Positions 21,480 to 44,483 of a stretch of 62,732 nucleotides of DNA are shown here, piece by piece (the first letter of the stretch is position 1; each line of letters starts with the position of its first letter). Source of the DNA: Bacteroidetes bacterium 41-46 (GTDB lineage: Bacteria; Bacteroidota; Bacteroidia; Bacteroidales; UBA932); contig MKTA01000023.1 of assembly GCA_001897515.1 (NCBI GenBank), positions 1 through 62,732 of the forward strand, written 5' to 3'. The notes under the pieces were generated by a model, which did no database searches, was not told the origin of the DNA, and saw only the letters and a list, made by a program, of their open reading frames with translations. Position numbers and translations under genes: made by a program.

Positions 21480-21706
21480 CAATTAAGTTGTCTATCCCTG
21501 AAGAAAACCAATAAAATTTTAAATATTGTTATAGAACCATGTCACTTATGCTCTTTGACGTATTGAAAATAAAGATAATAACACATGTTGTCGTTCTTAA
21601 GGCATTTATACACTTTTGCCGTTTGACGACTTTTAAATAAGAATTTCTTTTATTTGAAACTGCCAAATAATTGGTAACCAAATATTTTTTTAAAGTCGTC
21701 AAACGG
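21480..21706 (+). promoter_or_regulatory. CRISPR leader with long inverted repeat abutting repeat 1
   Basis: 227 AT-rich bases between cas2 and the first repeat. An inverted repeat, GCCGTTTGACGACTT at 21618-21632 and AAGTCGTCAAACGGC at 21693-21707, extends one base into repeat 1 and nearly pairs further through TTTAAA. In RNA it would form a stem of about 17 bp immediately before the first repeat. Array transcription should start here, but no clear TAnnTTTG box was found. Confidence 0.75.
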
Positions 21707-24700
21707 CTTCTAATCGTACCATAGTGGAATTGAAATTTAACAATGGCAGTTTTTGTAAGCTAGAAAAAAACTTCTAATCGTACCATAGTGGAATTGAAAT
21801 TCAGAAGGTTCATTTGTCGGCTGGAAAAAAGCGGGCTTCTAATCGTACCATAGTGGAATTGAAATATCAGAGACTGAAATGTATGAAAAGACAAGAGGAA
21901 TCTTCTAATCGTACCATAGTGGAATTGAAATAGCTGAGCAAAACCCTGCATAATAGCAACTGCAGTCTTCTAATCGTACCATAGTGGAATTGAAATAGGC
22001 AAAAATGCAGTAAGTGCTTTTATGGACGCTGACTTCTAATCGTACCATAGTGGAATTGAAATAATCGCTCATATATGACACCTACGCCTGTATTAACTTC
22101 TAATCGTACCATAGTGGAATTGAAATTTTGTCGCTCTTTATTTTCTGCCTCGCTGCTTTACACTTCTAATCGTACCATAGTGGAATTGAAATGATATGGG
22201 AATTTGTTCAGGGAATACTCTCAAACCTTCTAATCGTACCATAGTGGAATTGAAATATTGCCAAAACATTCAGACAGGAAAAACAATCTCCCCTTCTAAT
22301 CGTACCATAGTGGAATTGAAATTAAGAAGAATGGAGTTAAGGCCAAAGTTCTTCTTTCTTCTAATCGTACCATAGTGGAATTGAAATATGTGTGTCTAGC
22401 TGCATAAAAACTCAGATGATCAACTTCTAATCGTACCATAGTGGAATTGAAATATGTTGATACTCTTCGCTTTGATGCAGTGGTCAATCTTCTAATCGTA
22501 CCATAGTGGAATTGAAATAATATAGATCAACAGGTATTAATCTCTCATCTGACTTCTAATCGTACCATAGTGGAATTGAAATAAATTTTGAGCGCGTTGG
22601 ACACCCTGCTTGAAAAAGCTTCTAATCGTACCATAGTGGAATTGAAATTAAATTAACTGGCCAGGTTCCATCCTTCTTTAGCCTTCTAATCGTACCATAG
22701 TGGAATTGAAATGAGAGATCTGCTTCTGGATTGAGATATGCTCAAAATCTTCTAATCGTACCATAGTGGAATTGAAATCTAGTCAAGTTGGCAAACGGCA
22801 AATGGGGGCCGGGCTTCTAATCGTACCATAGTGGAATTGAAATAAAGTTGGAGAATAGGAGTTATAATTACCCGAATGCTTCTAATCGTACCATAGTGGA
22901 ATTGAAATACAATAAACACATCCTTAAAAAGCAGGTAAAATTCTTCTAATCGTACCATAGTGGAATTGAAATGGCATCTGATGATACGTTGTCGTCTATG
23001 TAGAAGCTTCTAATCGTACCATAGTGGAATTGAAATCGATATTAAATGCCCCGACTTGGTTTGGCTTTGGCTTCTAATCGTACCATAGTGGAATTGAAAT
23101 AAATCCCCATCTGAAAAAAGATTGGACATTTGTACCTTCTAATCGTACCATAGTGGAATTGAAATGGAGAGAGGCATATTATGCCGAACAGGTTAAGGCC
23201 TTCTAATCGTACCATAGTGGAATTGAAATGTAATTTCACATGGAGAAAAGAAAAGATGATTTGTGCTTCTAATCGTACCATAGTGGAATTGAAATCTAAA
23301 TAATGGAAATCATGACTGCAAAAGTAAAACTTCTAATCGTACCATAGTGGAATTGAAATGGTAAATATTGAACCAGCTAACTATGCAATTGGTTCTTCTA
23401 ATCGTACCATAGTGGAATTGAAATTGGATTTCTGATTGAAATTGACTTGTCATCGTAGCTTCTAATCGTACCATAGTGGAATTGAAATTAGCTCCATACT
23501 TTTCTTCAAGCTGATGATAAATCTTCTAATCGTACCATAGTGGAATTGAAATAACATACACCTCCAGACCAGGTTCCCCCGGATGCCTTCTAATCGTACC
23601 ATAGTGGAATTGAAATGAATAAGACAATCAAACTATGATGTAGCAAAATACTTCTAATCGTACCATAGTGGAATTGAAATTTGAGTTGAGTTACCATTAA
23701 GAGCTGATATTGTGGCTTCTAATCGTACCATAGTGGAATTGAAATATGGATAACTGCCAACTCAAATAATCGGTATCTAACTTCTAATCGTACCATAGTG
23801 GAATTGAAATAGTTTACTTTTACAAACACGAATACCCTTGCTACCTTCTAATCGTACCATAGTGGAATTGAAATTTAAGGTATGTCATATAGTTTTGTGA
23901 CGCAGAACTTCTAATCGTACCATAGTGGAATTGAAATGGGTGCGCTTGTTGCGTACTTCAAGCGGTCTCAGGCTTCTAATCGTACCATAGTGGAATTGAA
24001 ATATATCAAAAACCCTAAAGAAATGAAAGCACTAATACCTTCTAATCGTACCATAGTGGAATTGAAATGAATGAAGGAACTCCTTCCTGCTTGGCGAGAG
24101 ATCTTCTAATCGTACCATAGTGGAATTGAAATATTTCTTTTACTTGTACTTCAAAGATTTCTTCGTCTTCTAATCGTACCATAGTGGAATTGAAATGGGA
24201 GAATTGAGCTAACTGCCCGTTATCAAACTTTCTTCTAATCGTACCATAGTGGAATTGAAATAACAACAAGCGAAAGAATTTAGGGCGGAGGCTCACTTCT
24301 AATCGTACCATAGTGGAATTGAAATAGATATTATGGGGTTTATAGGAGAAGTTGATGCTCTTCTAATCGTACCATAGTGGAATTGAAATCTACATTGTCT
24401 TTTGTGAATCTATAAGCCATGTCCTTCTAATCGTACCATAGTGGAATTGAAATTTTGTATAAAAACTTCGCCAACTCCACAATCGGCACTTCTAATCGTA
24501 CCATAGTGGAATTGAAATAATCTGATTGAGTACCTTGCAAAAGAGAAAGTAAAGCTTCTAATCGTACCATAGTGGAATTGAAATGCAATTGGTCACGATT
24601 ATGTTAATCGTATGTGTGCTTCTAATCGTACCATAGTGGAATTGAAATTAAAAAAAGCGGAGGCTGAAAGATTAAAAGCCGAAGCTTCTAATCGTACCAT

Positions 24701-26990
24701 AGTGGAATTGAAATAGAATGCGAAGGACATCTTGGCGTTAAGGAGCGAGCTTCTAATCGTACCATAGTGGAATTGAAATAGTACAGAAATCTATTGAAGG
24801 AGCGACAAAAGACTCTTCTAATCGTACCATAGTGGAATTGAAATTTTATATCATATCGGGTACACTCGCCCCCATTATCTTCTAATCGTACCATAGTGGA
24901 ATTGAAATGGGGTTACAATCAACCAGCCCTGTTCTTTCCACTCCTTCTAATCGTACCATAGTGGAATTGAAATATGCTATCGGCACAACCTTAGAGAGTT
25001 GGGTTGCAGACTTCTAATCGTACCATAGTGGAATTGAAATATCTCTATTAGCGAAAATATCTTCAGGGTTAACTGCTTCTAATCGTACCATAGTGGAATT
25101 GAAATTATTTAGGGTTAACTTTTTTTCGTGCGATAAATCCTTCTAATCGTACCATAGTGGAATTGAAATATTTTATACGGTTGAAACTCTTGTGATAGTT
25201 TTTGCTCTTCTAATCGTACCATAGTGGAATTGAAATCTCACAGAGGAGCTGCTTAAAAAGTGCGGGTTTACACTTCTAATCGTACCATAGTGGAATTGAA
25301 ATGATATTAAGCGAGTTCGTTGAATTTAGTGTAATGCTTCTAATCGTACCATAGTGGAATTGAAATAATGCATCTGATGTTGCATTTCCTCTACGAACAA
25401 TCTTCTAATCGTACCATAGTGGAATTGAAATCTTGGAAGATGGTGTTGCAACAGGGCAGTTTTGAGGCTTCTAATCGTACCATAGTGGAATTGAAATCTT
25501 TTATCATGAAACTGAATTAAATCTGAATGAGATATACTTCTAATCGTACCATAGTGGAATTGAAATATTTCAATTGCTGCTCCACCACCTTGCACTAGGA
25601 TCCTTCTAATCGTACCATAGTGGAATTGAAATCGCTACTAGGCCCTTGCGCTCTAATATATAGTGTTCTTCTAATCGTACCATAGTGGAATTGAAATGAG
25701 CGAGCTTCTCCTACAGTTTCCTTGCCTCTGACTTCTAATCGTACCATAGTGGAATTGAAATACAGAAGCAAGTTTTCCTATAACATCTATAATATCCTTC
25801 TAATCGTACCATAGTGGAATTGAAATAAGGAAAGCGGAAAAGAGGGTGATAACAAGAGGGCTTCTAATCGTACCATAGTGGAATTGAAATAAACGGGCTT
25901 GTGTTGACACGAATGATGCTGTTGCTTCTAATCGTACCATAGTGGAATTGAAATCTGCTTGAAGCCCTTATCACGAATCGCAAATACTCTTCTAATCGTA
26001 CCATAGTGGAATTGAAATTTCACAAGACGAGGGCAGTAAGCCATTCCGTCTCTCTTCTAATCGTACCATAGTGGAATTGAAATATCAGCTCTTCGCATTT
26101 GGCTGTGTCGTCAAAGACTTCTAATCGTACCATAGTGGAATTGAAATGCTAACGCTGCTGCTCCTGCTATTGCTGCTCCTGCTTCTAATCGTACCATAGT
26201 GGAATTGAAATAGAGTAGGGATAATCAATTCATAATGATTTTTCAGCTTCTAATCGTACCATAGTGGAATTGAAATAAATTAAAGCTGGTATATACTTAG
26301 CTATTCGCATACTTCTAATCGTACCATAGTGGAATTGAAATGTGACAAAGCAGAGTCTTTCTTCACCGCGGCGTTGACTTCTAATCGTACCATAGTGGAA
26401 TTGAAATAATCAAGAAGTGAAGAGGCAGGGGTAGAGCCACCCTTCTAATCGTACCATAGTGGAATTGAAATTTTCTTGCCCTTTTGCCCTAAACGCTGTA
26501 ACTCGCTTCTAATCGTACCATAGTGGAATTGAAATTTCAAGTTTCTCTTCTTTGTTCCTGAGAGTAAAACTTCTAATCGTACCATAGTGGAATTGAAATA
26601 AATTCTTCAACAAACCAGTACAGAGCCTCAACCCTTCTAATCGTACCATAGTGGAATTGAAATTTTCAATCAACTTATCTATATTAACATCCCATTTTCT
26701 TCTAATCGTACCATAGTGGAATTGAAATAGCACGACCTTAGCTAGTATATGTGTTATCTGCGCTTCTAATCGTACCATAGTGGAATTGAAATGCATAGAG
26801 CGCGATGCTTGTAGAGCCGGCAGGAATCTTCTAATCGTACCATAGTGGAATTGAAATTGGATGACTCCGGCTGAAGCGAGATTAGCATTTGACTTCTTCT
26901 AATCGTACCATAGTGGAATTGAAATTTAAACACACTTGTAGTCACATAATCATGTGAATGCTTCTAATCTACCATTCTGGAATCGTAACG
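21707..26990 (+). CRISPR. Type I-B CRISPR array, 82 repeats counting one decayed terminal repeat
   Basis: Counted by hand: 81 identical-looking 30-base repeats starting CTTCTAATCGTACC and ending GGAATTGAAAT, first at 21707 and last at 26896, then a decayed copy at 26961-26990 with CTTCTAATC-TACCAT-CTGGAATC. Spacers are mostly 34-38 bases. The ATTGAAAT end marks the array as plus-strand, downstream of cas2, and gives the 8-base crRNA handle; the decayed repeat marks the old, leader-distal end. No duplicated spacer was noticed by eye, and no match to the window was found, though neither check is exhaustive. Apparent proteins with FQFHYGTIRR or NSTMVRLE are translations of the repeats. 26991-27132 beyond the array holds only a short palindrome (CATGATT-ATG-AATCATG). 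Confidence 0.98.
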
Positions 26991-36724: not shown

Positions 36725-38296
<1,572 letters not shown>

Positions 38297-39749: not shown

Positions 39750-40292
39750 ATGAAAAAAAGAGAGATGTTATCATTATACACTCATGTTATTAAACTTACG
39801 CTTTCTGTAGTGCTTACAATTACATTTACAATAGCTGGGACCACACCTGCAAATTCACAGAACAAAACTGTAAACGAGAGCAAAACCTCAAATGAGCACA
39901 AACACACATATGACCCTGCACTTGCTGCAAAATATGGTGCAGATGATTATGGGATGAAAAGCTATACATTTGTGATTCTGCGTACCGGACCTAATAAGAC
40001 GGAGGACAAGGCTCTTCTGGCAGAGCTGTTCAAAAGCCATATGGAGAACATCAATAAGCTAGCCAGAGAGGGCAAGCTTATCATTGCCGGCCCAATGGGA
40101 AAGAACGAAAAACAGTACAGAGGAATTTTCGTACTCAACACAAATGACCATCATGAGGCAAGAGAGATGCTAAAGGGAGACAGAGCAATCGTAGAGGGAG
40201 TTTTTGAGGCCGACCTGTTTACATGGTACGGATCGGCTGCACTCCCTGCCTATCTTGAGGTCCACGAAAAAATAGCAAAGAGTAATCCATAA
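39750..40292 (+). CDS. Exported YCII-domain protein
   Basis: 180 residues. Signal peptide (LTLSVVLTITFTIAGTTPANS), then a YCII-like ferredoxin fold from about residue 75 with the conserved His in LFKSHMENINKLAREGKLI and GPMGKN. An exported version is unusual, as YCII proteins are normally cytosolic. 44 bases before the DUF438 gene and codirectional, so it may open the B12-sensor cluster or simply precede it. Confidence 0.8.
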   Translation: MKKREMLSLYTHVIKLTLSVVLTITFTIAGTTPANSQNKTVNESKTSNEHKHTYDPALAAKYGADDYGMKSYTFVILRTGPNKTEDKALLAELFKSHMENINKLAREGKLIIAGPMGKNEKQYRGIFVLNTNDHHEAREMLKGDRAIVEGVFEADLFTWYGSAALPAYLEVHEKIAKSNP

Positions 40293-40336
40293 AAATCTCT
40301 AAAAAAATCCCCAGAAATCTAGAATTAGCAATTTCA

Positions 40337-41560
40337 ATGAATATCATAAAAAGCGACAGAAATAAAATAGAGCAGCTGATTGCCTTCTCTACAGGAATGA
40401 TGAGTGGTGGCGATGGGAAGGAGTTGATTGAGAAACATAAAGAGGCACTCAATGGTATAACCCCTTATGACATGCTCTACCTTGAGGAGTACCAGATGCA
40501 GATGGGAATCACTGTCCCTGAAATCAAAAGGGATATAAATAAAATACTTAATGTTTTGTACGAATACCTGAAGGCATATGACTGGGAGCGGCCTGAGGAG
40601 GGGACTTTTTTGTACTATCTTATGCTTGAGAACAGGGCATTTGAGTTCCGCCTCAATACAATGAAAAAGATCCTCAAAGCCTACAAAGGGAGGGAGCTTG
40701 ATGAACTCGGCTCATTGAAGGCCGAACTTCTCCCCCACCTGGAGAGTTTTGCCGGATTTGAACCTCACTATGTAAAAAAAGAGAACATTCTTTTTCCATA
40801 TCTTGAAAAACACTGGAAAGAGTACAAACCGCTCAGGGTTATGTGGTCTCTGCACGACGACCTCCGCCGGATGATAAAAGAGCTTATCGGTCTTGCAAAA
40901 TCTGAGCAGAGCGAGTGGATGACACTCAACCGGGCTATCGGAAATTACTACTTTGGAGCCTTTGGAATGATTCAGAAGGAGGAGATAATTGTCTATCCCA
41001 TTGCGGCAGGCACAATTCCTAAAGAGGATTGGGCCGAGATGCACAGGCAGAGCTTTGAGTACCCGTTTCCATTTATTGACAGACCTACTCAGCCTGCAGA
41101 GGAGTCGGGCTCAGATACAAACATAGATATTCACTACTCAAACAGATTAGAAATAGAACTTAACGGTCCCGTATCAGACCAGTTCCTGCAACGTGCAACA
41201 ATGATATTTGACAGCCTACCGCTTGATATTACCTATGTTGACGAGAATGACAAGGTGAGGTATTTTAACAGGGCTAAAGACCGCTTTTTTCCTCGCTCTC
41301 CGGCAGTAATCGGCAGGGATGTCAGAAACTGCCATCCGCCTGAAAGCCTCCACGTAGTTGAGGAGATTGTAAATAAATTCAGAAGCGGAGAGAGGGATGA
41401 GGCCGAATTCTGGATTACCCTGAGAGGAAAATTTATTCATATCAGGTATTTTGCAGTGAGGAGTGAGAAGGGAAAGTATAAGGGGGTTCTTGAGGTTAGC
41501 CAGGATGTAACTGAGATAAGGAAACTTCAGGGGCAAAGAAGGCTTCTTGACTGGGAATGA
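40337..41560 (+). CDS. DUF438-hemerythrin-PAS protein
   Basis: 407 residues, cytosolic. N-terminal DUF438 domain (ALNGITPYDMLYLEEYQMQM), a hemerythrin-like four-helix domain with His ligands (LPHLESFAGFEPHYVKKENI and MWSLHDDLRRM), and a C-terminal PAS domain near residues 290-400 (ITYVDENDKVRYFNRAKDRF, IGRDVRNCHPP). Hemerythrin domains bind oxygen or NO at a di-iron site. Such proteins are implicated in redox or nitrosative sensing. It is followed 40 bases later by the B12-binding protein; together they suggest a signalling cluster with several sensors. Confidence 0.9.
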   Translation: MNIIKSDRNKIEQLIAFSTGMMSGGDGKELIEKHKEALNGITPYDMLYLEEYQMQMGITVPEIKRDINKILNVLYEYLKAYDWERPEEGTFLYYLMLENRAFEFRLNTMKKILKAYKGRELDELGSLKAELLPHLESFAGFEPHYVKKENILFPYLEKHWKEYKPLRVMWSLHDDLRRMIKELIGLAKSEQSEWMTLNRAIGNYYFGAFGMIQKEEIIVYPIAAGTIPKEDWAEMHRQSFEYPFPFIDRPTQPAEESGSDTNIDIHYSNRLEIELNGPVSDQFLQRATMIFDSLPLDITYVDENDKVRYFNRAKDRFFPRSPAVIGRDVRNCHPPESLHVVEEIVNKFRSGERDEAEFWITLRGKFIHIRYFAVRSEKGKYKGVLEVSQDVTEIRKLQGQRRLLDWE

Positions 41561-41600
41561 ATATTTTTTCCTAACTTAGAAGAGGTTAAAAAACAACATT

Positions 41601-42263
41601 ATGAACAGACAAAGCTCAAACAACGAATTGCTCCCAATACTACTCAACGGAGACAGAAACAGGGGGCTTGAGGTGGTTAACAGATTGCTGGAAGAGGGCA
41701 AGGATGTCATAACCATATATGAAGGGGTAATTAAGCCTGCTATGTACGAAGTGGGAGAGCTTTGGGAAGAGGGAAAGATAAGCGTGGCATCTGAACACCT
41801 TGCATCCGCAATTGTTGAGACTCTTTTAGGACACCTCTACTACAGGATAATAAAGAACTCCGGAACAAATAAGATGGTTGTTGTTGTAACATCAGTTGAA
41901 GATGAGGTTCACCAGATAGGGGCAAAGATGGTATCAGATATGTTTGAGATACATGGATGGACTTCGCACTTTCTGGGAGCAAACACACCAATAGATGAAC
42001 TCCTGGATTTTGTTACAAAAGTAAATCCTACAATTATCGGACTTTCTATGAGTATTGATCTTCACACAAGGAATCTTGAAAAAACAATTTTGAAAATTCG
42101 TGAGAGAATCCCTGAGATGCCAATTCTTATAGGTGGACAGGGACTTCACGAAGAGGGCAAAGAGATAATGTTAAAACACAATGGAGTTCTGTATTTAAAA
42201 GATTTGCAAGCCCTGGAAAAATTCCTTAATCAAGCTCATTATGAAAAGGACAGGCCTAATTAA
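41601..42263 (+). CDS. Cobalamin-binding protein with CarH-type light-sensing motif
   Basis: 220 residues, no DNA-binding domain. A helical cap (about 1-85) carries Trp55 followed nine residues later by Glu65-His66 (LWEEGKISVASEH), which is the W-x9-EH motif that marks light-sensing adenosylcobalamin proteins such as CarH and LitR. The Rossmann domain has E102-x-H104-x-x-G107 (EVHQIG; His104 would be the lower axial Co ligand), SMS at 149-151 and GGQG near 178. In CarH light breaks the Co-C bond and changes oligomer state; here the same change would have to be passed to a partner. The kinase gene overlaps its end by 23 bases, so the two are coupled. Light sensing is inferred from the motif. 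Confidence 0.85.
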   Translation: MNRQSSNNELLPILLNGDRNRGLEVVNRLLEEGKDVITIYEGVIKPAMYEVGELWEEGKISVASEHLASAIVETLLGHLYYRIIKNSGTNKMVVVVTSVEDEVHQIGAKMVSDMFEIHGWTSHFLGANTPIDELLDFVTKVNPTIIGLSMSIDLHTRNLEKTILKIRERIPEMPILIGGQGLHEEGKEIMLKHNGVLYLKDLQALEKFLNQAHYEKDRPN

Positions 42264-43371
42264 TAACATCTTAACAAATTGGAGGAACGAGTTTAAACTC
42301 TCAGTAGCCGAGAGCCCCTCCATCTATATAGCACTTTTTAATGTGAGCGGAGAGCTTGTCTTTGCCAACAAAACAATTAAGAAGACCTTCAACTCCTCTT
42401 TAACACCAGCCGGTAATTTTCTAAACCCCTCTTTTAACAAGCTTGTCAAAAAGGAGGCAAAAGAAACGACTATCTATACAGGCTATGTTACTCTTGGAAG
42501 CTATGATACTGAGAACATCTCACTACTTGGGAGGTTTTACAGAAAGGGCGATGAGATTCTTTTTATAGGAGGGGTTGATTCGCAGCAACTCCTTGAGCAG
42601 AATAAATTACTCTATAATCTCAATTCGGAGATAAACAATCTCCAGAGACAACTGGTTAAAGAGAAATCACTTCTGGAGGAGGCAAATGCCGCAAAAGATA
42701 AATTCTTCTCAATTCTTGCACACGATCTTAAAAACCCTTTTAATTCACTTTTGGGATTTTCCGACTATCTCATTGAGAATTTCAGGGAGATGGAGCAGGA
42801 GGAGATAGAGGAGCAGCTGACAATGATGAGAGACTCCATCAGGCAGACATTCAATCTTCTGGAAGACCTTTTAACATGGTCAAAAGCACAGAGAGGGAAA
42901 TTGAACTGCAAACCTGAACTGATAAAAATTAAAGAAATTTGTCAGGAGGTAAGAGGAGCCCTCAGCTCAATGGCAGAAGAGAAGGAGATTGAAATTAACC
43001 TCTCTGCCGGCGACGGTGCCGAGATTTATGCGGATCCGAATATGCTTAAAACCATAATGAGAAATCTCCTCTCCAATGCGATAAAATTCTCGTTCAGAGG
43101 GGGTAAAATTTCAACCTCATTTGAGATAGAGGGGAATTATTACAAAGTGGCCGTCCATGACAATGGTACAGGAATCTCAATTGAGAATCAGGTTAGGCTA
43201 TGGAATCTTGCAGGGCAACATACAACTCGGGGTACTGCAGATGAATCCGGGACGGGGCTTGGCTTGTTAATTTGCAAAGAGTTTGTTGAAGCTCACGATG
43301 GTAAGATCTGGGTAGAGAGCGAAGAGGGAAAGGGCAGCACCTTCTCATTCAAACTGCCTTTAAAAAAATGA
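42241..43371 (+). CDS. Sensor histidine kinase coupled to the B12 protein
   Basis: 376 residues, cytosolic. N-terminal PAS-like part (YIALFNVSGELVFANKTIKK), a coiled coil near 115-150, HisKA with His161 (SILAHDLKNPFNSLLG) and complete HATPase (NLLSNAIKFS, HDNGTGIS, GTGLGL). No response regulator follows, so its target is elsewhere. Start lies 23 bases inside the B12 gene, a strong sign that the two products work together. Confidence 0.93.
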   Translation: MKRTGLINNILTNWRNEFKLSVAESPSIYIALFNVSGELVFANKTIKKTFNSSLTPAGNFLNPSFNKLVKKEAKETTIYTGYVTLGSYDTENISLLGRFYRKGDEILFIGGVDSQQLLEQNKLLYNLNSEINNLQRQLVKEKSLLEEANAAKDKFFSILAHDLKNPFNSLLGFSDYLIENFREMEQEEIEEQLTMMRDSIRQTFNLLEDLLTWSKAQRGKLNCKPELIKIKEICQEVRGALSSMAEEKEIEINLSAGDGAEIYADPNMLKTIMRNLLSNAIKFSFRGGKISTSFEIEGNYYKVAVHDNGTGISIENQVRLWNLAGQHTTRGTADESGTGLGLLICKEFVEAHDGKIWVESEEGKGSTFSFKLPLKK

Positions 43372-43403
43372 GATGACAAAAATTAACCTTAAATATTTCA
43401 GAT

Positions 43404-44483
43404 ATGGACTCTTTTTGGGGATATTTAGCACCACTCATAATTATTATCGGAATAACAATACTACATCTGCTTCTTCCGGCCAGGTGGCTTAAAGGGTACA
43501 TCAACAGACCCGGCAGTGAAGAGAAGAGCATTTACAGACTTAACGGACTTCTTGTTCTGGCATTCTCTGTGGCGATATGGTTCTCTTTATGCAACTACGG
43601 GAACCTGTCATATAACTGGCTCTATCTTCACAGATGGGAGGGGTTGGCAGGAGCATTCTTCACAGGGCTAATATTCACTGCATTAGTAGTATTCAGGTAC
43701 AAACCGGTAAGAAAAAACCTCCTTGCCGATATCTTTCTGGGCAGAGCGGAGAACATTAAACTTCTTAACGGTAGAGTTGATGCAAAGATGTGGCTGTATA
43801 TGGTTGGTGCCGTAATGCTGGAGCTCAACGTACTCAGCTTTGCTGCTCACCACAATATGACTTTTGGCCCGGAGGCATCCGCAGGTGTACTTACCGCTAC
43901 ACTCCTTATAACCTGGTTTGTCACAGAGTATATGTTCTTTGAGAGAGTGCACCTCTACACATACGATATATTTGCTGAGCGGGTGGGATTCAAACTGGGA
44001 TGGGGATGTCTGGTCTTCTATCCTTTCTTCTACACTATTCCGCTCTGGTCAACTGTCCATCTGCCGGACCCTGGACTCTCATCGTTCTACTATATTCTTC
44101 CCGTCATAATTTTCTTCACGGGATGGGGACTCGCTCGGGGAGCAAATATGCAGAAGTATCACTTCAAAAGAGACCCGAACAAGAGATTTTTATGGATTAA
44201 ACCTGAAAGTATTACCGACGGAAAAAACACCCTTTTGGCAAATGGCTTCTGGGGTAAATCAAGACATATCAATTATTTGGGAGAGATTCTGATGGCTAGC
44301 GGCATTGTACTAGCAACAGGTTATCCCGATATTATATGGCCTTGGCTCTACCCCCTCTACTATATATTGCTCCTCTTCACCCGCGAATGGGATGATGACC
44401 GCCGGTGTGCCGCTAAATATGGCGAACTCTGGAGCGAATACAAAAAGAGAGTTAAATACAGAATTATACCGTTTGTATATTAA
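43404..44483 (+). CDS. ERG4/ERG24-type sterol reductase homologue
   Basis: 359 residues with about nine transmembrane helices. C-terminal signature of the family: LLANGFWGKSRHINYLGEIL, then the acidic DDDRRC, AKYGELWSEYKKRVKYR and final IIPFVY. Eukaryotic members reduce sterol delta-14 or delta-24(28) double bonds with NADPH. A Bacteroidales bacterium is not expected to make sterols, so the substrate may be another polyprenoid or an exogenous sterol. 32 bases after the kinase, codirectional; may be an output gene of the B12-sensor cluster. Confidence 0.85.
   Translation: MDSFWGYLAPLIIIIGITILHLLLPARWLKGYINRPGSEEKSIYRLNGLLVLAFSVAIWFSLCNYGNLSYNWLYLHRWEGLAGAFFTGLIFTALVVFRYKPVRKNLLADIFLGRAENIKLLNGRVDAKMWLYMVGAVMLELNVLSFAAHHNMTFGPEASAGVLTATLLITWFVTEYMFFERVHLYTYDIFAERVGFKLGWGCLVFYPFFYTIPLWSTVHLPDPGLSSFYYILPVIIFFTGWGLARGANMQKYHFKRDPNKRFLWIKPESITDGKNTLLANGFWGKSRHINYLGEILMASGIVLATGYPDIIWPWLYPLYYILLLFTREWDDDRRCAAKYGELWSEYKKRVKYRIIPFVY

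Follow-up and report, generated by a model that had tools for sequence, protein, structure and literature searches.

A cobalamin-binding protein paired with a histidine kinase in Bacteroidetes bacterium 41-46: a candidate globin-less relative of split photocobilin-kinase systems

Does a cobalamin-binding domain (CBD) with the cap residues of the photoreceptor CarH act on a histidine kinase (HK) when it is encoded as a separate protein? The question is raised by a locus in Bacteroidetes bacterium 41-46 (GenBank assembly GCA_001897515.1, contig MKTA01000023.1, forward strand, positions 1 to 62,732; this whole stretch of 62,732 nucleotides is called the window below). Five open reading frames (ORFs), located by a preliminary description of the sequence and reproduced here, follow each other at 39750..44483 on the plus strand, on which all features of the locus lie. 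Intergenic gaps are 44, 40, -23 and 32 bp. The ORFs encode, in this order, a YCII protein, a hemerythrin-PAS protein, a CBD protein of 220 aa (41601..42263; the 41601 protein), a soluble histidine kinase of 376 aa (42241..43371) and an ERG4/ERG24 membrane protein. The start codon of the kinase lies 23 bp inside the end of the CBD gene. This overlap had been reported before, was confirmed, and is the same in the related genome G011, whose CBD is 84% identical. Based on the comparisons below, we favor with moderate confidence the reading that the CBD-HK pair descends from a split photocobilin-kinase system, has lost the globin and relies on B12 only, with likely control of the kinase in trans.

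The 41601 protein was searched against Pfam with a domain threshold of E ≤ 0.01. B12-binding_2 (1.4e-18) and B12-binding (3.7e-16) were its sole domains; at this threshold there was no globin and, as previously stated, no DNA-binding domain. The protein is composed of a four-helix cap (residues ~9-84) and a Rossmann domain (~91-217). Alignment with Thermus CarH (translated annotated gene) placed W55, E65, H66, H104 and P130 at CarH W131, E141, H142, H177 and P200. The Wx9EH cap motif that had first drawn attention to the protein (W55/E65/H66, 41763..41798), and that in CarH-type photoreceptors covers the adenosyl group, is therefore present and aligned with that of CarH. It is accompanied by the lower-ligand motif ExHxxG with H104 (D101-G107, 41901..41921) and by a GxxxP element (G126...P130, 41976..41990), the latter from motif reading and the CarH alignment. 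CarH G174 corresponds to D101, which stands at the glycine position of a published GxxH signature (extract of PMC11796333), and the light-state ligand H132 of CarH corresponds to E56. With regard to the B12 motif D/ExHx2G/Px41SxT/Vx22-27GG, taken from an extract of PMC9304148, ExHxxG, the x41 spacing, S149 and GG178-179 are present, with SMS for SxT/V.

W55, E65, H66, H104 and P130 were invariant in 17/17 aligned homologues. The genome contains seven B12-binding family matches (one under the family cut-off, and two in proteins that were partly read, cap region included), and Wx9EH was found in the 41601 protein only. Thus, the motif is not a chance occurrence. Together with G126, the five residues were kept in 118/118 stand-alone and 119/119 globin-fused homologues among the matches listed; these sets are the best-listed database matches, picked by similarity, and one protein of 261 aa (P0251) is in neither.

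Among PDB sequences, the best matches were the photocobilin 8j2w (3.1e-18) and the light-responsive CtMerR 8jbs (2.3e-17). Photocobilins are photoreceptors that combine B12 with a bilin, the latter bound by a photoglobin. Methionine synthases and CarH (4.5e-12) ranked behind them. An AlphaFold2 model of the 41601 protein (pLDDT 85.5) also had photocobilin 8j2w as top PDB fold match. In NCBIfam the best match was CarH (3.3e-19), which scored 69 bits and thus below the cut-off of 400. The CarH-like identity proposed earlier thus stands as far as the cap residues are concerned, whereas the closest characterised relative is photocobilin. An adenosyltransferase gene (Cob_adeno_trans) is present in the genome, as in most of the 60 related genomes described below, and adenosylcobalamin (AdoCbl) can likely be made by the host. 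Judged by its sequence, the 41601 protein is a CBD with AdoCbl-type cap residues, which would bind AdoCbl and undergo photolysis.

Linkage of the two genes was analyzed in 60 related genomes, own genome included, with a CBD threshold of E ≤ 2e-32. The CBD was present in 19/60 genomes. At 17 of the 18 loci besides the window, the HK is encoded downstream on the same strand; at five of them a small gene, termed X, lies in between, and at the others the HK comes next. Including the own locus, 18 of the 19 CBD genomes have the HK adjacent or one small gene away. In G018, a contig end cuts the CBD, and X and the HK open another contig. A profile of the HK N-terminus found matches in 20 genomes, namely the 19 CBD carriers and G004. 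The profile included 17 of the 19 kinases, which it recovers by construction; what is informative is the absence of this kinase type from 40 of the 41 CBD-less genomes. G004 has no CBD; of the CBD-linked kinase a broken remnant is left, upstream of an SPFH gene (L072, G004:C17, 2797-3617). In G024 the kinase is split into two ORFs, with the CBD and the neighboring genes open (L038, G024:C9, 3644-4704). The wider cluster was confirmed as five genes, but its complete order is kept in five genomes only (own, G011, G024, G007 and G020), with an intact kinase in four of them. Three further genus members have the YCII gene downstream of the HK (L042, L047 and L050).

The kinase has a HisKA (2.1e-10) and HATPase_c (2.9e-26) core with a phospho-acceptor histidine, predicted to be H161 (42721..42723) within an AHDL motif that is invariant in 17 aligned kinases. 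By these features it is a two-component sensor kinase. A membrane anchor was not detected, no 19-residue window exceeding a Kyte-Doolittle value of 1.6. In a model of the kinase (pLDDT 79.7, pTM 0.51), the strands and helices of residues ~28-111 (42322..42573) are arranged in PAS-like order, and a long helix comes after them. Since Pfam gives no PAS domain in this N-terminus, the PAS-like sensory domain is a prediction from the model and the alignments, in which it is conserved among CBD-linked kinases. The preliminary description had found no response regulator in the cluster. This holds for the cluster and for the contig, on which no receiver domain was found; the 17 matches in the genome are all on other contigs. 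It does not hold for more distant loci, where a response regulator follows the pair.

These distant loci came from a scan of genome contigs, which yielded one close Bacteroidales relative (a metagenome-assembled genome) and four distant loci (L057-L060) from Pirellulaceae, Syntrophobacteraceae, Desulfobacterales and one further bacterium, thus including Planctomycetota and Thermodesulfobacteriota. The HK is downstream of the CBD in 4/4 of them; in L058 the CBD itself was missed by ORF calling. A response regulator is encoded directly behind the HK in L058, L059 and L060. L057 has a sigma-54-type response regulator, after an X gene, and the CBD start in L060 overlaps with a gene of the heme oxygenase family. 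The CBD and the HK are a conserved gene pair in relatives and in distant loci. The preliminary description had named a lack of linkage elsewhere among the observations that would speak against its proposal; as the genes are linked elsewhere, this objection does not apply, and the suggested output other than the DNA binding of CarH, likely a kinase, is supported. In Azospirillum thermophilum, a globin (PF00502, 3.7e-9) is fused to the CBD, followed by a small hypothetical ORF that overlaps an annotated HK. Perlabentimonas gracilis, a cultured carrier, has a globin-CBD protein as well (P0271). No kinase is encoded near a CBD locus of Pontibacillus. In Ilyobacter (L069, 4527-6570), the CBD protein is extended at its N-terminus and has no globin match in Pfam; a GGDEF gene overlaps it, possibly a second output in trans.

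What is the protein encoded by X? It has 153 aa (153-159 aa in L044, L045, L046, L048, L049 and L057) and is encoded between CBD and HK. There were 2019 database relatives at E ≤ 1e-4; the named ones are nearly all 'hypothetical protein', and none of the 120 listed had a Pfam domain. For 32 X proteins Pfam gave no convincing family, and a six-sequence X profile had no match among PDB sequences up to E = 1. Using hhalign, the six X rows compared to A1 gave P = 0.025. The comparison of 120 X rows with 111 globin N-termini resulted in P = 1.2e-5 (119 columns, probability of 81%), with controls at 0.25 and 0.52. The 111 N-termini were taken from 119 globin-CBD fusions, eight being dropped because the cutting motif was absent, and the globin of these fusions itself matches phycobiliproteins. 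A HMMER globin profile matched 79/120 X sequences at E ≤ 10 (best 1.3e-7), and 0/120 reversed and 0/120 shuffled sequences. From these profile comparisons we identify X as a putative divergent photoglobin. Sister CBDs in HK pairs are thus either fused to a phycobiliprotein-like globin or have X encoded beside them. An X-type globin had no match in the genome of the window, which is ~93% complete.

We further analyzed a phylum-wide sample of 392 genomes, of which 69 had a match (own included). Besides the window, 50 places with E below 3e-51 and 10 weaker ones were taken. At 23/50 loci the HK is the next gene or follows X. These comprise 17 globin-fused loci, four with X and two in which no X was seen (L103 and L141). 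One was typed as globin-fused by length and tree place only (L136), in L152 globin and CBD are separate ORFs, and in L141 the CBD was missed by ORF calling and the HK ORF starts shortly past the match. None of the nine weaker loci with a called CBD had an HK directly downstream. At 15 of the 27 loci with no HK neighbor, the CBD gene is followed by one of 754-807 aa. The single such gene tested is alpha-amylase-like, and there PAP2 flanks the CBD on the opposite side. The arrangement PAP2 - CBD - alpha-amylase-family gene (L107, 1560-5356) may recur in 15/50 loci, by gene length alone. At another locus (L118, 3412-4686), an ATP:corrinoid adenosyltransferase gene (PF02572, 1.9e-59) lies upstream of a kinase-less stand-alone CBD.

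A tree was calculated from 60 CBDs, including 18 of the 27 unlinked and 12 of the 17 globin-fused ones. A branch with support 100/97 divides the unlinked stand-alone CBDs from the HK-linked ones, and the globin-fused type has its own branch (96/81). The distribution of X needs at least three changes, and the window is placed among eight rows that all lack X, at a fork of less than strong support (94/77). We read this as suggesting repeated loss of X in preference to gain, which the tree also allows.

Combining these data, the following mechanism is conceivable. The ancestor would be a photocobilin-kinase system of the split kind, and the lineage of the window would since have lost the globin subunit. 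The separate 41601 protein is predicted to bind AdoCbl, and green or blue light would break the cobalt-carbon bond and change the shape of the CBD. This change likely switches the activity of the kinase encoded by the overlapping gene, through a contact for which the simplest site would be the conserved PAS-like domain or else the long helix after it. The kinase would then signal to a response regulator unlinked to the pair. In the subclade of five genomes, the output may be tied to an operon with the hemerythrin-PAS protein and the sterol-reductase-like membrane protein. Here we infer the identity of the cofactor, photolysis, the CBD-kinase contact, the direction of switching and phosphotransfer to an unlinked regulator. 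A diguanylate cyclase, a separate protein, is activated by photocobilin in the light state (extract of PMC10979010), and control of a kinase in trans is therefore plausible.

Several observations weigh against this mechanism. Only three of the four elements of the light-responsive CBD signature GxxW, EH, GxxH, GxxxP (SignatureFinder, extract of PMC11796333) are found in the 41601 protein, which has DxxH for GxxH. Of the 118 stand-alone homologues among the matches listed, 116 or more have a residue other than glycine at position 101, and a strict GxxH filter would therefore probably miss most or all of them. With E56 at the site of CarH H132, we do not expect a bis-His light state. According to the extract of PMC11796333, this position is variable among light-responsive relatives, so that E56 is compatible with a light response. 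The CBD model fits methionine synthase domains almost as well as photocobilin, and the fold alone is therefore not decisive. There is no HK neighbor at 27/50 related phylum-wide loci. Heme oxygenase (PF01126) was found in 0/60 genomes, including the X carriers, by a search that was positive in 3/14 control genomes. A bilin in X is therefore unsupported in this genus, and the idea of a functional bilin there is weakened. Photolyase is present in 15/16 genus members with the pair and in 5/9 without it (Fisher p = 0.04, relatedness ignored), and outside the genus in 2/3 versus 5/32 genomes, which is a weak link. Database listings give relatives HGW-Bacteroidetes names, which we take to refer to deep groundwater and hence a dark habitat. 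The hemerythrin gene adjoining the pair is neutral for light or speaks against it. Finally, the reading is based on sequences and models. Points for light are the cap residues, the photoglobin-like partners in sister systems, the heme oxygenase gene in L060 and, weakly, the photolyase association within the genus.

Could the CBD respond to another signal? It may report AdoCbl supply or oxidant damage to the kinase, with light being incidental and holo- and apo-CBD acting oppositely. We consider this unlikely, but it is the alternative that deserves most attention. All evidence for AdoCbl binding, i.e. the cap residues and the CarH alignment, fits supply sensing equally well. The hemerythrin-PAS protein encoded next door is a plausible oxygen or redox sensor, the presumed groundwater origin of the HGW-named relatives fits as well, and in L118 a related CBD gene is downstream of the adenosyltransferase gene. 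The photoglobin-like partners in sister systems and the photolyase association, weak as it is, stand against supply sensing and both point toward light.

Alternatively, the system might be decaying in this lineage, so that without a globin light sensing was lost and CBD and kinase serve another purpose or none. The missing X-type globin in the genome of the window, the broken kinase in G024 and the remnant in G004 would agree with this. We regard decay as improbable given that both genes are open in the window with all cap residues intact, and that the five-gene order was found in five genomes, in four with intact kinase. A role of the CBD as corrinoid methyl carrier, with a kinase linkage that would reflect control of one-carbon metabolism, was suggested by several listed homologues named 'methanogenic corrinoid protein MtbC1' in the source records and by an NCBIfam MtbC match of the 41601 protein (1.1e-14, far under its cut-off). 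This reading is very improbable and was rejected on cap residues and neighborhood: no methyltransferase is among the five cluster genes, CarH is the better NCBIfam match, if itself under the cut-off, and Wx9EH is absent from the six remaining B12-domain matches in the genome.

Beyond this locus, the photosensory reading of the pair leads to a broader proposal, which we put forward tentatively and hold to be rather less than probable. Two-component systems may include a widespread light-sensing class with a detachable photosensor, in which the kinase, the bilin-type globin and the B12 protein each have a gene of their own and can be fused, split or dropped in evolution. The lineage of the window would represent globin-less, B12-only control of a kinase in trans, in a subfamily missed by the GxxH signature. 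If true, B12 photoreception would extend to two-component signaling in Bacteroidota and other phyla, and an unnamed photoglobin-like family would be added. Many of the listed homologues concerned now go under the name 'methanogenic corrinoid protein', and those of the globin under 'hypothetical protein'. Pairs that naturally have or lack the globin would allow the part of each chromophore to be separated, and histidine kinases would gain a small, trans-acting green-light input. The photoglobin paper of Schneider et al. 2022 (CSBJ) is said to have predicted globin-B12 light-sensing bundles in signal transduction. No description of a CBD-HK gene pair was recognised among the papers that searches of the open-licence PMC literature listed.

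The pair is flanked by three genes. The YCII-domain protein (39750..40292; Pfam YCII 2.1e-6) has an N-terminal hydrophobic stretch (Kyte-Doolittle). The next ORF (40337..41560, 407 aa) had been described as a DUF438-hemerythrin-PAS sensor. Pfam supports Hemerythrin (7e-11) and PAS_10 (2.2e-32), but DUF438 gave no match up to E = 1. The sterol-reductase-like enzyme reported downstream was verified as an ERG4/ERG24 (sterol reductase)-family membrane protein of 359 aa (43404..44483; Pfam ERG4_ERG24 6.1e-41). Scans for promoters and terminators were at chance level. No cobalamin riboswitch was found in the window with Rfam families at gathering cut-offs, which is neutral between the readings. Elsewhere, the window contains a CRISPR-like long array (21700-26410) with the repeat CTTCTAATCGTACCATAGTGGAATTGAAAT and spacers of ~35 bases. 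A six-base tandem repeat (38186-38269, 14 copies, 85% matches), the period being a multiple of three, encodes a run of Ala/Thr-Gln close to the N-terminal end of the ORF 36725-38296 on the minus strand. A 21-base repeat (37779-37839, 2.9 copies at 97%) is within the same ORF.

How does the pair compare with known systems? The preliminary description implied that a stand-alone B12 sensor with another output would be new. The novelty is lower than this, because AerR and the photocobilin-diguanylate cyclase system are already known as separate B12 sensors acting on a partner (extracts of PMC9144470 and PMC10979010). In BBAG-2 clusters, a B12-binding protein and a phycobiliprotein-like globin are separate neighbors, as in the sister systems described here; these clusters come with a bilin reductase and sometimes heme oxygenase, and the term 'histidine kinase' is absent from the text of PMC10151467. 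AerR of Rhodobacter is likewise a separate B12 protein with a conserved cap tryptophan, the one residue on which the two were compared. Its partner is the transcription factor CrtJ (extract of PMC9144470), whereas that of the window CBD is predicted to be a kinase. CarH of Thermus thermophilus shares Wx9EH, the lower-ligand histidine and GxxxP with the 41601 protein. In contrast to CarH, the 41601 protein has no MerR DNA-binding domain, has E56 for H132 and D101 for G174, and likely has a kinase as output. Photocobilin is the best PDB match by sequence and fold, and sister CBDs carry a globin as it does. The photocobilins SasPcob and AbDPcob contain a CarH-type CBD, and stand-alone forms exist, as in the window (extract of PMC10979010). 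Unlike photocobilin, the 41601 protein has no globin, nor did its genome yield one of the X type, and its predicted partner is a histidine kinase.

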